A DNA stretch of 62,139 bases from a virus: positions 1 to 62,139 of the IMG/VR virus record IMGVR_UViG_3300027976_000037. One strand, 5' to 3'. Below are positions 864 to 51,462 of the stretch, piece by piece. Made by a program: the position numbers and the translations under genes. The notes beneath the pieces are model-generated. The model worked only from the letters and a program-made list of their open reading frames with translations, had not been told where the DNA came from and did no database searches. Each line of letters opens with the position of its first letter. Positions within the stretch are counted from its first letter, which is position 1.

Positions 864-2213
864 CTACCGACCCTCTAAAGAAGAGTCGGCTTCAACGTAA
901 CTTTTTATAGTATCGTTGGATTTTTTCCGCTTCATTGAATTCGGCTTGACAATCATCTTGCGAAGATCATCAGAGGTCAATTTCTCCACGGACTTAGATT
1001 CGGACGGTTCCCGTCCTATTTTATCTTTTGCCAATAAATTGACAAAAGCAAATTTCTTTATATTACCAGCGGCCAGAACATCTCGGTCATGGACTTTTCC
1101 ACAAGAACATTTCCACGTTCTATCGGATAGTTTTAGATTTTGATTGATCTTACCGCAAGAACACATTTTTGACGATGGTTCAAATCTTCCAATTGTCAGA
1201 AGATTGGTTCCATACCAATCGGATTTATAAGTTAGGAACGAAATGAATTGCCCCCAACCAACGTCTCCAATTGATTTGGATAACTTACGATTTTTCATCA
1301 TGTTTTTTATAGATAAGTCTTCGAGGCAGATCGTTTGGTTCTCACGAACTAACTTTGAACTTAATTTATGATGAAAATCTTTTCTACTATTAGAAATTTT
1401 TGCGTGGATATTAGAAACTCGTTTCTTCCACAATTCTCTCTTTTTTGACCCTAGTTTTTTCTTTGACAAAATTCGTTGCTTCTTGGACAACAGTTTTTCG
1501 TATTTTTTTAGAAGTTTTGGATTTGAATATTTGTTTCCGTTTGAATCCGTCACAAATGTTGAAATTCCAAGATCAATTCCAATTGAATTCTCCAATGTTG
1601 GAATTGATTTATCTTTTTTCTTTATTTTAGTTTCAACTCTCAATGATGCAAAATATTTCCCCCTTGAATTCTTGGATATAAAAATTGATCCAACTTCTCC
1701 AACAACTTTTCTGTGAAAAATACACTTGATTGGTTCTTTGATCTTTGGAATTGAAATATTTGATTTTGAATAATCCACATCAAATCCTTGTGGAATTTGA
1801 AACGATTTTTTAGATATATGTTTACTTTTGAAATTTGGATACTTAGCGATCTTCTTAAAAAATCTAGAAAATGCACTATCCAAATCCCACAGTGATTGTT
1901 GAACGGATTGTGAATTAACTTCCCTTAAAAACAAATATTTGGAGTGTTTAAGTTCCTTGACCATTTCCATTAATTTTGTAGCAGTTATAGATTTTCCGGT
2001 TTCTTGATAAGTCTTATTCTTTAATTCTAGTCCCAAATTGTAGACAAACCGACAACAACCAAAATGCTTCTCCAAAAGAATTTCTTGTTCTTTTGTTGGA
2101 TAAATTCTAAACTTATATCCTTTGATTATTGTGTCCACTATGATAAATAGCATAGACTTTACAAAACATTCAATTTTTTTGTAGAAAAGTGAATAATAAT
2201 TCAAATTTAGCAC
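864..2213 (-). CDS. tnpB: TnpB (IS605 OrfB-type RNA-guided nuclease)
   Basis: TnpB-family nuclease of an IS200/IS605-type element, ancestor-like to Cas12. Near the N-terminus is the family motif YKFRIYPTKEQ. RuvC residues are visible: Asp in GIDLGIST, Glu in CLEDLSI and Asp in HDRDVLAAGN. A four-Cys zinc ribbon (CSCG ... CSCG) lies between the last two. The likeliest start is an internal Met at about 2153, just before the motif. No TnpA transposase is present, so the element is an orphan that would need TnpA in trans. The last codons (SSLEGR) are written in a hairpin that forms the element's right end, as expected where the guide RNA scaffold overlaps the tnpB 3' end. Intact, but activity is untested. 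Confidence 0.93.
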   Translation of the reverse strand: MLNLNYYSLFYKKIECFVKSMLFIIVDTIIKGYKFRIYPTKEQEILLEKHFGCCRFVYNLGLELKNKTYQETGKSITATKLMEMVKELKHSKYLFLREVNSQSVQQSLWDLDSAFSRFFKKIAKYPNFKSKHISKKSFQIPQGFDVDYSKSNISIPKIKEPIKCIFHRKVVGEVGSIFISKNSRGKYFASLRVETKIKKKDKSIPTLENSIGIDLGISTFVTDSNGNKYSNPKLLKKYEKLLSKKQRILSKKKLGSKKRELWKKRVSNIHAKISNSRKDFHHKLSSKLVRENQTICLEDLSIKNMMKNRKLSKSIGDVGWGQFISFLTYKSDWYGTNLLTIGRFEPSSKMCSCGKINQNLKLSDRTWKCSCGKVHDRDVLAAGNIKKFAFVNLLAKDKIGREPSESKSVEKLTSDDLRKMIVKPNSMKRKKSNDTIKSYVEADSSLEGR

Positions 2214-5544: not shown

Positions 5545-5549
5545 GAGTG

Positions 5550-6221
5550 ATGATGAATGAAACATTTAACCCACAGTCGGTAACTTTTGAAGAAGTTCCG
5601 AGAGCCAAAGTTCGTGAGTTTATTCAGACTCACTACTTGGGTTCGTTTCCAGCCGTTTCATTGGCTTATGTTGGAATACTATACAACCAAAATTTAATCG
5701 GCGTTGTAATCTACGGAAGGACGTCAGCGCCTTCAGTTCAAAAATCAATTTTTAAACCAGATGTAAATGTGGATAATAAAGATATCTTGGAATTACAACG
5801 ACTTTTCATCATAGACGATGAAACACTTCTACCAAAAGAGGATAGAAAGAATCTTGCCGGTTTTTCAATATCACACGCAAACGATTTTGTAGTGAAGAAG
5901 TTTCCAAACGTTAAAGTTATCTTATCTTATTCAGACCCAGACCACCATCTAGGAACGGTTTATAAAGCAACTAATGCAATTTACCAAGGTCGAGGTGATA
6001 AGGTTCGCATGTTTAAAAGAGCTGATGGGAAGCTTATTAGAACAAATCGAGTTCAACCTGAAGAAAAGGGAGAGTTGGTATCCATGACAGGAAAAGACCG
6101 ATGGGTTTATCCCGTTGGCTCCACTTCACAGAAGAAGTGGGTTAAACGTAATTTAATCGACAGTGAACTGCAAGAGCTGATAACAATATCAGAAGCTCTT
6201 TGGAAACAATTTTGTGGTTAA
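5550..6221 (+). CDS. Mom-like acyltransferase (DNA-modification type)
   Basis: About 223 aa. Layout resembles the GNAT-like Mom family that modifies adenine in phage Mu DNA: an early HYLGSFPAVSLAYVGILYN segment, then IGVVIYGR, ELQRLFIIDD, the substrate helix NLAGFSISHA, and the characteristic LSYSDPDHHLGTVYKATNAIYQG-like stretch (about residues 130-152). Known Mom proteins protect phage DNA from restriction. Assignment rests on motif order, not alignment; another GNAT function is possible. Two adjacent ATG codons (5550, 5553) are equally good starts. Confidence 0.68.
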   Translation: MMNETFNPQSVTFEEVPRAKVREFIQTHYLGSFPAVSLAYVGILYNQNLIGVVIYGRTSAPSVQKSIFKPDVNVDNKDILELQRLFIIDDETLLPKEDRKNLAGFSISHANDFVVKKFPNVKVILSYSDPDHHLGTVYKATNAIYQGRGDKVRMFKRADGKLIRTNRVQPEEKGELVSMTGKDRWVYPVGSTSQKKWVKRNLIDSELQELITISEALWKQFCG

Positions 6222-7462: not shown

Positions 7463-7554
7463 GGACATGTGGTGTAATGTAGCACCGCTAGTTTTATAAA
7501 CTAGGCGCACCCGATAGGTGCCGAGTGTGGGTTCAAGTCCCTCCATGTCTACCA
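7463..7554 (+). tRNA. Class II tRNA with anticodon TAT
   Basis: Acceptor GGACATG/CATGTCT, A73, CCA. Anticodon stem CTAGT/ACTAG is perfect and encloses TTTATAA, so the anticodon is UAU, which reads AUA (Ile). It has a long variable arm GCACC/GGTGC, seen normally only in Leu, Ser and bacterial Tyr tRNAs. With A73 it looks like a leucine-type body carrying an isoleucine anticodon. The amino acid actually attached is uncertain. Confidence 0.88.
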
Positions 7555-7562
7555 ATTTTCAG

Positions 7563-7884
7563 AGTATGTGACCTTACGCGGGGCGAAAGTAAAACCTCGA
7601 GGAAGTTCGCTGCTGCTTAACTCGATGCTGGAAGAGCAATGCTGAATCGATGACAGTCATAGTGTCTGAGTCCAAATCAGAAGGGTCTATGGATCTCAAT
7701 CCTCAAGCGGTTCGTTATTACCACAAATCCGCAGTAACCTAAAAATCCTAGAGTATGTGAGTTATACGTTAATATAGGAAGGTCGGGGCCTCTTCTTGAA
7801 AAAGGAAGAACGGAATTTATTCCGTAGAGAAATGTAAGGTCAGGAGCTGAAAGGCTCTGGACAGAACAGCGGCTATAGCATATT
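7563..7884 (+). ncRNA. rnpB: Probable RNase P RNA
   Basis: Helices fall in the bacterial P RNA order. P1: AGTATGT (7563) with GCATATT (7878). P2: GACCTTAC (7570-7577) with GTAAGGTC (7834-7841), a perfect 8 bp. A P4-like 5' strand GAGGAAGTTCGCTG (7599-7612) pairs through AG-[U]-UCGCUG with CAGCGGCT (7867-7874), including the single bulged U. The conserved ACAGAA (7861-7866) precedes the P4 3' strand. A hairpin GGAGC/GCTCT between P2' and P4' sits where P19 occurs. Length (about 322 nt) is slightly below the usual 350-400 nt. The specificity domain was not modelled. It would cleave tRNA 5' leaders, alone or with host protein. Confidence 0.75.
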
Positions 7885-7950
7885 TTGAAAACATTTTAAA
7901 TATTAAGGTTTCGTTTGAAAGAAATCGTTAGTTCGAATATACTCATATAC

Positions 7951-8262
7951 ATGAAGTGTGAAAAATGTAATAATCAACACGATGGAAAATATGGTAGTGG
8001 AAGATTTTGCTCTTGTGAATGTGCTCGTTCTTTTTCAACCACAATTAAACGAGAAGAAATAAAAGTCGTGATTCTGTGGAATGGGAATTGGCATCGAAAA
8101 AAATTAATGAGAAAACATAGTGTAAAGCAGGTAAAGAACAGAGACAAAATTAAAATTTCGGAAATATTGAAAGCGGGTTATGCTGCGTACGTAATTGATG
8201 ATTATAGAAAATTCAATCGAAAGTTTGTAGAATCCGAATTTAACAAATTTATGGTGGGTTAG
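7951..8262 (+). CDS. Small zinc-finger protein, homing-endonuclease-like N-terminus
   Basis: About 103 aa from ATG at 7951; an upstream TTG at 7915 is less likely. It opens with CEKCNNQHDGKYGSGRFCSCECARSF (four cysteines; shown here in part), the zinc-binding start found in many phage and viral homing endonucleases. The rest is basic (Lys/Arg-rich), consistent with DNA binding, but no HNH or GIY-YIG catalytic motif follows, so it may be truncated. Its stop codon overlaps tRNA-Met. Confidence 0.68.
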   Translation: MKCEKCNNQHDGKYGSGRFCSCECARSFSTTIKREEIKVVILWNGNWHRKKLMRKHSVKQVKNRDKIKISEILKAGYAAYVIDDYRKFNRKFVESEFNKFMVG

Positions 8263-12489: not shown

Positions 12490-12888
12490 GGGCCTGTTCT
12501 TGGATTCGACTTTATGAGTTGAACTTAGAACGCAAGCGCAGGTGGTAAACATCCTGCATAATCCTGATTACAAAAACATAAATGCAAAGAGAAATCTAGC
12601 AAAGCTCACAGTTCTGTCCCTCGTTCGTAAGAACGTGAACAGCGCTTACGCTGTCGCTGCCTAAGGGTAGCCCGTTTATCTATTCAACGCAGATAGAGTA
12701 GAATAAACGTCAAACATCTGCTGATATGTTCCCTATGAGATATGAGAGTCGGTAATGGGGGAGAAAGTTACAAGATTCTTAACCTTCGTAAAGCGTACAG
12801 CTAATTACGATTGTATCTACGGTACTATGCTTGTAAATGTCTAATGGGCAAATCTTAAAACACGCGGGTTCGACTCCCGCCAGGTCCA
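12490..12888 (+). ncRNA. ssrA: tmRNA (transfer-messenger RNA)
   Basis: The tRNA-like ends pair as GGGCCTG/CAGGTCC with A at the discriminator; TTGGATTCGAC follows the 5' strand and the T-arm is GCGGG/CCCGC around TTCGACT. A tag frame begins at GCA 12584 (AKRNLAK...), ends NSAYAVAA, and stops with TAA at 12662-12664, 26 codons if translation resumes there or 21 from the next GCA at 12599. The AVAA end is a typical protease-recognition tail. The mature end lacks encoded CCA (GA follows). It rescues stalled ribosomes with SmpB and tags the peptide. Confidence 0.95.
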
Positions 12889-12978
12889 GAACGCAGAGAA
12901 TGCCACCTTCACGTTGGTTGCGTTTGAGTAACGCCAAGAGCATTCACATTTTACAGTTGTTGTTTTCATATCTACAAG

Positions 12979-42796: not shown

Positions 42797-43021
42797 ATGT
42801 CATTTGACCCAATCAAAGCTCTCATGAAAAATACCGCTCCGGAAATCAAGCGGGATGACCACGAGCAATCAGTCCTCGAAAAATTCTGCAAGGACCACGG
42901 TATCGTTGGTATGAATTGTGGTAATATGAATCCAACCGCGGCTCTACGGATGCTACAAGGTCGGATGGGAATTAGGTCGCCTGAGCTAAACGAATCAAAG
43001 AAAGAAATTTTACATGGATAA
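42797..43021 (+). CDS. Hypothetical protein, 74 aa
   Basis: Not recognised. Helical, with KFCKDHGIVGMNCGNMNP in the middle. Start 42797 is set by the adjacent TATTTATA. Ends overlapping the 2H phosphoesterase gene by 8 nt. Confidence 0.7.
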   Translation: MSFDPIKALMKNTAPEIKRDDHEQSVLEKFCKDHGIVGMNCGNMNPTAALRMLQGRMGIRSPELNESKKEILHG

Positions 43022-43973
43022 AGTACCGTCATACATTGAATATTACGAAGAACTCATTATGGAAGGTGATGATGTCCATACTGTCATGATTGAGATTCCA
43101 AAGTTTCCAGAGCTGATGGAATTTATCAATTCTATTCCGGAAGAAATTCTATATGAGCCAAACGACCCAAAATACGGCCGCACACACAATCCGCACATCA
43201 CTGTTCTATATGGTATTGATAAGATGGAAGGTGAGAAAGCAAGATCTATTTTACGAAAAATCCCATCCGCTATTACAGCTACATTAGGTTCCGTCACCAA
43301 ATTCGAAACCCCTGAGTTTGATGTGATAAAGATAGACGTATCAAGCCCGTATCTATATAGGGTTAATAAATTTCTGCGGGACAACGTTGAGTATCATAAT
43401 GACTATGACACGTTTCATCCACATGTCACCGTTGCTTATGTTAAAAAAGGCGAAGGAAGCCAATTTTTAAAAGACAACCGATTCGCTGGGAAAAGATTCG
43501 CATTCAGAGCTTTCTTGTATAGTAATGAAAACTGGGATAAAGAAGTAATTCCAATGAAGGTTAGTAAACCTAAAGCGGTTGATGAAGTTGCACTTGGTTT
43601 AGGTGGCGGCTACGGTGGTTCTCCAGGTGGTCAAATCGCAGCCAGTGGTTGGGCAGCAACATACTCATCTCCACAAAGCAGCACACGCTTAGGTAACTAC
43701 AAGACGCAGAGTGGTGGTTTTCCAAAACAGACTACGCGGGATAAAGGAACAGGCAATACAGTTACAGGCATCGACCCATATGATACAGTGACCGACGAAG
43801 ATTTGAAAGACCCGCGGTTCTCTGCTGACGAAATTCGTTCTGGTCTAAGATATGAAATGGCACAGATGGAATATCCAAACAAGGACATTGCTCGTCAAAT
43901 TGTGATTCAGCGATTAAAGAAGAATCCAAAACAATACTCCGACCTTCACCAATATTTTGACACGGAGAAATAA
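43014..43973 (+). CDS. 2H phosphoesterase (LigT-like) with C-terminal extension
   Basis: 319 aa. Two H-x-T motifs: NPHITVLYG (about residue 61) and HPHVTVAYV (about residue 140), which define the 2H family acting on 2',3'- or 2',5'-phosphodiesters. A Gly/Ser-rich linker (about 195-255) leads to a C-terminal domain with EIRSGLRYEMAQMEYPNKDIA, also seen in style in the next gene (DUF5661-like). Could process RNA ends or degrade defence cyclic nucleotides (anti-CBASS Acb1 is a 2H enzyme); not decidable here. Confidence 0.85.
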   Translation: MDKVPSYIEYYEELIMEGDDVHTVMIEIPKFPELMEFINSIPEEILYEPNDPKYGRTHNPHITVLYGIDKMEGEKARSILRKIPSAITATLGSVTKFETPEFDVIKIDVSSPYLYRVNKFLRDNVEYHNDYDTFHPHVTVAYVKKGEGSQFLKDNRFAGKRFAFRAFLYSNENWDKEVIPMKVSKPKAVDEVALGLGGGYGGSPGGQIAASGWAATYSSPQSSTRLGNYKTQSGGFPKQTTRDKGTGNTVTGIDPYDTVTDEDLKDPRFSADEIRSGLRYEMAQMEYPNKDIARQIVIQRLKKNPKQYSDLHQYFDTEK

Positions 43974-50592: not shown

Positions 50593-51462
50593 GTGAATAT
50601 AAATACACACATCCCATTTGGCGCAACCCTATTTAGTAGAGGACTTTACAGTTCTTGGTGTCATGTCCCTCACTACAACTTACTTTTTGATTGTGGAGAA
50701 GGATGCGCCACGGCTATCGGGAATGACATTTCTAACATCACCAAAATTTTTATTGGCCACGGCCATGGCGACCACACCCTCGGACTATTCAGTCTAATCG
50801 GTTGTCGTAACACAAGTCGGGGAACTTCCAAGAACCCAGAGACTCGCGACCACAACAAGCCGCTTGAAATTTTTTATCCATATGGTAGTGAGGGGATTGC
50901 TGATATCATTGACTTTGTAACTAAGCGTAATGCTGGTTGGCTGCGGTACGATCTTAAGTGGACTCCGCTAAGAATTGGCGACACTGTTAAAATTGGACAC
51001 AATACGTTTATTCGTGCATTTGAGATGCTGCATCAGCGGAATGGTCTGTCTCTTGGGTATGTTATCTATGAGAAGCGCAATAGACTCAAACCGGAGTTTC
51101 GTGGTAGAGATATCCCAGCGCTGCTAAAGTCTGGCTCAGTCAACCGAGACCACCTTAACGAATTCTATGACGTAAATCTATTTGCGTACTGCCTCGATGC
51201 GTATGAGATTCCGACTGGCCATGAAATCCACGGATGCCCACACGTTGTTATGGACTGCACCTTTATAAATCCAAAAGATAGAACAAACATGACTCACTTT
51301 ACACTTATTGAGGCTCTTCTGTTCTGCCACAACAACAGTATCACAAATATGTATGCTGCACACGTTTCTCCGCGTTATGATGGCCGGGTAATTGAGACTT
51401 CGTTTAATAGCGAAGTGACCAAGGTTCACTATCTGAGTAACACTAATACAAACCAAATTTAA
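50593..51462 (+). CDS. rnz: RNase Z (metallo-beta-lactamase fold)
   Basis: 289 aa with GTG start. LLFDCGEGC, then the zinc motif FIGHGHGDHTLGL (H-x-H-x-D-H at about residues 57-62), AFEMLHQRNGLSLGYVI, VVMDCTFINP and AAHVSPRYD supply the remaining ligands in the RNase Z order. RNase Z trims 3' trailers of tRNA precursors. Here it fits with the tRNA island, tmRNA and RNase P RNA. Other MBL nucleases remain possible. Confidence 0.86.
   Translation: MNINTHIPFGATLFSRGLYSSWCHVPHYNLLFDCGEGCATAIGNDISNITKIFIGHGHGDHTLGLFSLIGCRNTSRGTSKNPETRDHNKPLEIFYPYGSEGIADIIDFVTKRNAGWLRYDLKWTPLRIGDTVKIGHNTFIRAFEMLHQRNGLSLGYVIYEKRNRLKPEFRGRDIPALLKSGSVNRDHLNEFYDVNLFAYCLDAYEIPTGHEIHGCPHVVMDCTFINPKDRTNMTHFTLIEALLFCHNNSITNMYAAHVSPRYDGRVIETSFNSEVTKVHYLSNTNTNQI

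Follow-up and report, generated by a model that had tools for sequence, protein, structure and literature searches.

The window, by which we mean the whole 62,139-nt viral stretch analysed here, carries at positions 7561-7886 (P1 to P1') what is probably a true RNase P RNA, phage-borne and of bacterial class A descent, that would act on phage pre-tRNAs together with host RnpA and alongside a phage RNase Z. We give this reading a probability of roughly 0.7. RNase P RNA is the ribozyme that trims tRNA 5' ends in nearly all cells, and it is among the few near-universal ribozymes. Sequence comparison gives strong support for the identification of the phage RNA as an RNase P RNA, namely through covariation, topology and two-way profile matches to bacterial rnpB. 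Covariation, a core-motif scan and reciprocal models support the gene at 7561-7886, where any overlapping ORF is at most 72 codons long (stop to stop). If the reading is true, phage autonomy in translation would reach tRNA maturation, and a phage ribozyme without a recognisable specificity domain (S-domain) would be a natural test of the parts needed for tRNA recognition.

Genomic setting

The gene lies on the plus strand, as do all elements of the RNA described below and the tRNA-Ile, tmRNA and RNase Z genes. The tRNA island around it holds 16 tRNAs and a tmRNA. Upstream is a tRNA-Ile(UAU) found by ARAGORN (7463-7554), whose CCA ends 6 nt before the RNase P RNA gene, and this adjacency is kept in the related locus L010/L017. 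The tmRNA (12490-12891) was identified by both RF00023 (88.6 bits) and ARAGORN. Its tag reads AKRNLAKLTVLSLVRKNVNSAYAVAA, whose AKRNLAK start is shared by relatives, among them a phage contig of 297 kb.

Several other genes have places in or near the island. A small Cys-rich ORF (7915-8262) separates the RNase P RNA from tRNA-Met in the window; it is missing at the L010 site, where the two RNA genes are ~10 nt apart, and is possibly a mobile (homing-type) gene. A transposase (864-2213, minus strand; phrog_506, 1.3e-122) is inserted within the island, which also contains a Mom-like DNA modification protein (5547-6221; PF25680, 1.8e-22).

Homologues and covariation

Taken alone, the window copy has an ordinary plain fold energy (z = -1.2), and Rfam cmscan gave no RNase P family match at the locus or its homologues, either at the gathering threshold or at E 10. 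The case therefore had to rest on comparison. A pattern search around CR-V retrieved two copies that are near-identical, from the viral contigs L002 and L003, and a diverged one (69% identity) from another phage tRNA island (L004). A third version (77% identity; L010/L017) was reached via the phage RNase Z, on a collinear relative of 80 kb that has over 30 tRNAs as well as a tmRNA. The occurrence of near-identical copies in two viral contigs and of diverged copies in two more, all of them in tRNA islands, supports the view that the RNA is phage-encoded.

A blastn search of INPHARED with the window as query gave no match, and blast and the phage-based model R1 (see below) returned only chance matches across relatives. 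Five loci retrieved with a relaxed pattern (L014-L016, L018 and L019) are unrelated and were set aside as chance. No homologue was found in the related phages G006 (297 kb) and G010 (185 kb), both with tRNA islands and a tmRNA, so the RNase P RNA is dispensable in the wider group.

The covariation set consisted of three distinct sequences only (window, L004 and L010/L017), and the fold was drawn by hand on the class A topology, pseudoknots included, with 77 pairs. Over these pairs and the three homologues 97.4% of the cells are paired, as against 35-45% when the partners are slid by 1-3 columns. Double-sided changes were seen in 25 pairs compared with 8.7 +/- 2.4 in shuffles, and 0/500 shuffles reached as high. 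Such compensatory changes occur in P1, P3, P4, P6, P16, P17, P18 and P19 and in an extra hairpin. The original prediction had named, as jointly telling against it, the lack of a covariance match and the lack of compensatory support; an Rfam match is indeed absent, and compensatory changes are present, P4 included.

Secondary structure of the phage RNA

The order of the elements is that of bacterial P RNA, with the P2/P4 pseudoknot inside P1. This order within a tRNA island had been predicted from the letters, together with P1, P2, P4, the ACAGAA before P4' and a P19-like hairpin, all of which are found in place. P3, P5, P6, P15/L15, P16, P17, P18, J18/2 and the homologues come in addition.

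P1 has 9 bp (7561-7569/7878-7886), within which the predicted 7 bp are contained, and three double-change pairs; its strands read AGAGUAUGU/GCAUAUUUU versus GAAGCAAGU/GCUUGCUUC among homologues. P2 (7570-7577/7834-7841) has the eight perfect pairs proposed for it and shows no change in the three homologues, so this pairing is without covariation evidence. The P3 hairpin (7579-7599; two double changes) is followed by CR-I, GAGGAAGU (7599-7606), in which P4 begins and the bulged U (7606) lies; this CR-I has one A fewer than the bacterial GAGGAAAGU. P4 (7604-7612/7867-7874) pairs AG[U]UCGCUG with CAGCGGCU. Between homologues UCGCUG/CAGCGG becomes UCGAUG/CAUCGG, the double change from C-G to A-U being found in L010. 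P4 with its diagnostic bulged U joins CR-I and CR-V as in the universal core, with one double change and zero core mismatches.

P5 (7613-7618/7705-7710) is the weakest helix, having two one-sided changes and one mismatch; an alternative pairing of its 3' strand (GCGG/CCGC) was dropped because it is broken in L004. The P6 pseudoknot (7619-7623/7759-7763) reaches into the P17 loop with the partner topology of class A, and the change of AACUC/GAGUU to GACUC/GAGUC in homologues is an A-U to G-C double change. P15 (7738-7740/7785-7787) varies on one side only, P16 (7746-7750/7775-7779) has one double change and P17 (7753-7756/7764-7767) has three. The L15 GGU (7781-7783) is found in all three homologues. 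Between P15 and P18 lies the extra hairpin (7791-7809), which is P15.1-like and has double changes in 6/7 pairs.

The P18 hairpin (7810-7825) has four double changes and leads into J18/2, UAGAGAAAUG (7825-7834), which is invariant across the phage homologues and has the same letters as J18/2 of a Candidatus Pelagibacter rnpB (L177). The P19 hairpin (7843-7848/7853-7858) has two double changes. The last block (7861-7874) comprises the CR-V ACAGAA (7861-7866) and the 3' strand of P4; it reads ACAGAACAGCGGCU in the phage versus ACAGAAnnnGGCU in bacteria, with one extra nt in the phage P4. Those features that are typical of class A, i.e., the P6 pseudoknot with the P17 loop, P16/P17, the L15 GGU and P18, are all present.

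Similarity to bacterial RNase P RNA

The phage RNA does not reach the RF00010 gathering score, and RF00010 searched over 48 related records gave no RNase P match at the locus or its homologues; weak matches elsewhere (L126, L128 and L130) look protein-coding on inspection. Annotation of large phages that is based on Rfam would thus miss such genes. We instead built a core motif from the RNase P consensus (GAGGA..AGU with a paired P4, UAGANNAAUG, and ACAGAA..GGCU), which is found with 0-2 mismatches in 68 of 70 bacterial rnpB genes. The scan was gapped, in place of an ungapped PSSM, because the lengths of P4 and J3/4 differ by one. All three phage RNAs have 0 mismatches, compared with 4 for the next best site on either strand of 2.67 Mb of phage DNA; one shuffle reached 2. 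This result and the excess of compensatory pairs set the predicted RNA apart from a chance likeness.

Profile models were then compared in both directions. Model R1, made from the phage sequences alone, was searched against bacterial and phage loci totalling 544 kb. Its top match is the 3' half of the Acetobacter pasteurianus rnpB, in register through J18/2 and CR-V (E 0.0012, where R1 and R3 E-values are rough, coming from short calibrations), and the third is the Shimia thalassica rnpB; both lie at the known rnpB position. Model R3 was made from 20 bacterial rnpB 3' halves, mostly alphaproteobacterial, with a structure assigned by hand. With filters off its top site in the window was 7798-7876 (16.4 bits, a rough E of 0.0015), with the runner-up at 7.3 bits (a rough E of 0.68), and in 840 kb the phage locus came fourth, behind three true RNase P RNAs only. 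The alignment takes in P18, J18/2, P19 and CR-V, so that the phage P18 aligns to bacterial P18 and the phage P19 to alphaproteobacterial P19. A cruder bacterial model, R2, with an RNAalifold structure that includes a doubtful GAGC/GCUU pair, did not single out the locus. The roughly calibrated E-values between the phage RNA and bacteria are modest (0.0012, 0.0015 and 0.019).

Of the types seen, alphaproteobacterial rnpB is the nearest, judging by the P19 region and by the R1 and R3 matches, and we infer that the phage RNA may descend from it. By descent and core the RNA would be an RNase P RNA, while falling below the RF00010 cut-off and lacking a recognisable S-domain.

The region in place of the S-domain

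At the position expected for P7-P12 (7624-7704) no S-domain can be recognised. The segment is ~80 nt long with one covarying hairpin (7665-7669/7677-7681), and is tens of nt longer in L004. CR-II and CR-III were found neither in 7624-7704 nor in the homologues. J5/15 is ~27 nt and has no clear GAGCAA for CR-IV; it holds UACCACA..AUCCGCA.UAACC, conserved across the phage homologues. The enlarged region in L004 (9175-9280) has a T-arm-like hairpin, GCUGG UUCAAUU CCAGU, suggesting that a part of a tRNA was inserted or mimicked, and this tRNA-like piece (CUGGUUCAAUUCCAG) gave no ARAGORN call.

Compared with bacterial class A RNA (RF00010), the phage RNA shares the order P1-P2-P3-P4-P5-P6 ... P15-P16-P17-P18-P2'-P19-P4'-P1' as well as CR-I, CR-V, the bulged U, the L15 GGU, J18/2, the P6 pseudoknot and P19. 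It differs by being phage-borne, by having no Rfam match and no recognisable P7-P12 or CR-II/III, by a P4 3' strand longer by one nt, a J3/4 shorter by one A and an expanded J5/15, and by the extra hairpin before P18. Nearly the whole S-domain is also lost from the archaeal type P/T RNase P RNA of Pyrobaculum (PMC4919922), which keeps its catalytic domain. The phage RNA resembles it in S-domain loss only; it has a bacterial-type P18, P19 and L15 GGU, and a short non-homologous domain stands in for the S-domain. RNase P RNAs of the Candidate Phyla Radiation have likewise lost helices and are missed at standard Rfam cut-offs, but they are cellular and lowered thresholds sufficed to find them (PMC8172020), unlike the phage RNA at E 10.

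RNase P RNAs in other phages

The original prediction knew of no common precedent in phages. This holds for the literature, as we found no report of an RNase P RNA encoded by a phage or any other virus in open-licence full texts, although earlier reports may exist elsewhere. For two megaphages only tRNAs and tmRNA are reported as RNAs, in a study that uses RNase P RNA to judge whether cellular genomes are complete (PMC8172020). At least in parts of the report on huge phages, tRNAs, tmRNA, synthetases and a CCA-adding enzyme are listed with RNase P RNA unmentioned (PMC7162821); the tmRNAs and tRNA arrays described there are, like the present RNA, RNA components of the translation apparatus that phages carry.

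Databases do contain further phage RNase P RNAs. We scanned viral contigs for the J18/2 and CR-V of ordinary class A, which gave 20 loci, and used RF00010 for confirmation. Class A RNase P RNAs were identified in a 463-kb contig (L293, 4030-4350; 208 bits), a 100-kb contig (L295, 4462-4786; 209 bits) and a 19.7-kb contig (L307, 3890-4207; 182 bits). In all three the gene is flanked by tRNA-Cys and tRNA-Gly with 6-nt spacers on either side. A 190-kb contig (L303, 10596-10802; 118 bits) has a class A RNA of 207 nt in its tRNA array with an apparent internal deletion that joins CR-II straight onto L15/P18; this RNA could be a relic, a minimal enzyme or a decoy. A fragment of a class A RNA was found in a 155-kb contig (L308). 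Terminase matches support a phage origin of the 463-kb and 190-kb contigs.

Like the window RNA, the RNAs of L293, L295 and L307 and the L308 fragment lie in phage tRNA arrays, with no RnpA detectable on these contigs or on that of L303. Unlike the window RNA, those of L293, L295 and L307 are readily matched by RF00010 (182-209 bits), and they are evidently a separate acquisition. Phage tRNA arrays have therefore probably gained an RNase P RNA on more than one occasion.

Other candidates were rejected. A blastn search of INPHARED with the Escherichia coli rnpB matched a Salmonella chromosome, contigs named as Acinetobacter phage but bearing bacterial genes, unverified faecal scaffolds and, marginally, a single short sequence. 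The rnpB-bearing 'Microcystis phage MaAM05' (L167, MW495066.1) also carries fliM, fabI, engB and glyS and so looks like a bacterial contig.

Proposed role in tRNA maturation and alternative readings

A phage RNase Z, the tRNA 3'-end nuclease, is encoded at 50593-51462. It is of the Thermotoga type (TIGR02650, 5.5e-34; PDB 1ww1 tRNase Z, 2.4e-34), is closest to the Thermotoga maritima enzyme, and keeps the HxHxDH motif as HGHGDH; related phages retain this enzyme at 70-73% identity. The Thermotoga RNase Z cuts after CCA. CCA is encoded in all 16 window tRNAs and in 29 of the 30 L017 tRNAs, which is what a GGU in L15 expects.

In the proposed mechanism the RNA would be co-transcribed with the tRNAs of the island. 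Its 5' end could be made by an RNase Z cut after the encoded CCA of tRNA-Ile and, where a tRNA follows (L010, L293, L295 and L307), its 3' end by an RNase P cut of the leader of that tRNA. The mature RNA would retain the catalytic domain (P1-P6, P15-P19, L15 and P4 with its bulged U) with a short unrelated hairpin region for a specificity domain, and would bind host RnpA. RnpA (PF00825) was not found on any phage contig searched; these contigs are fragments, and the subunit could come from the host. The catalytic domain alone can cleave pre-tRNA with or without RnpA, at a slower rate and with lower affinity (PMC4919922). With the L15 GGU pairing to the tRNA CCA, metals bound at P4 would cleave the 5' leaders of phage pre-tRNAs. 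It is thus plausible that the phage brings its own RNase P catalyst, and the benefit may be a supply of RNase P while dozens of phage tRNAs are made. From the replaced S-domain only, we infer that the RNA may also be tuned to the phage's odd tRNAs, as originally suggested.

A wider version of this reading is tentative, and we hold it at slightly worse than even odds: large phages may own a self-contained kit for maturing tRNAs, made up of an RNase P RNA, an RNase Z and tRNA arrays that encode CCA. In it tRNA end processing would cut a remodelled ribozyme with a new S-domain out of the polycistron, with the ribozyme itself taking part in lineages where a tRNA follows it.

The RNA might instead be a non-catalytic mimic that titrates host RnpA and slows host tRNA maturation, to the advantage of phage tRNAs or of takeover. 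Loss of the S-domain with retention of the catalytic domain and its RnpA site (PMC4919922) would suit such a decoy, as would the internally deleted RNA of L303. We nevertheless consider it unlikely, as the bulged U, CR-V, J18/2, L15 GGU and P6 are active-site elements that RnpA binding does not need and yet all are kept. A block of RNase P would also harm the phage because it has its own tRNA island, and the gene has tRNAs for neighbours in a genome that also encodes a phage RNase Z.

Still more doubtful is an active RNase P RNA whose new S-domain is specialised for the phage tmRNA or for mRNAs. The bacterial S-domain reads the D and T loops of tRNA (PMC4919922), the corresponding phage region is unrecognisable and variable, and the tmRNA is only 5 kb away. 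However, the L15 GGU is kept, CCA is present in all window tRNAs, and the gene is embedded beside tRNAs.

A decaying relic taken from a host would explain why the RNA falls under every Rfam threshold and why CR-II/III/IV are not recognised, but it is largely refuted by the 25 compensatory double changes and the invariant J18/2, P2 and CR-V blocks, which call for ongoing selection on structure, and we regard it as very improbable. A chance likeness of an unrelated structured RNA, for which the modest individual E-values might speak, is hardly credible given that both profile searches agree in register and that the P2/P4 and P6 pseudoknot topology coincides with CR-I, J18/2 and CR-V. The preferred reading is that of a phage-carried RNase P RNA acting in tRNA maturation. 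Elsewhere in the window (43014-43973) there is a protein of the 2'-5' RNA ligase superfamily that weakly resembles Acb1, an anti-CBASS protein.
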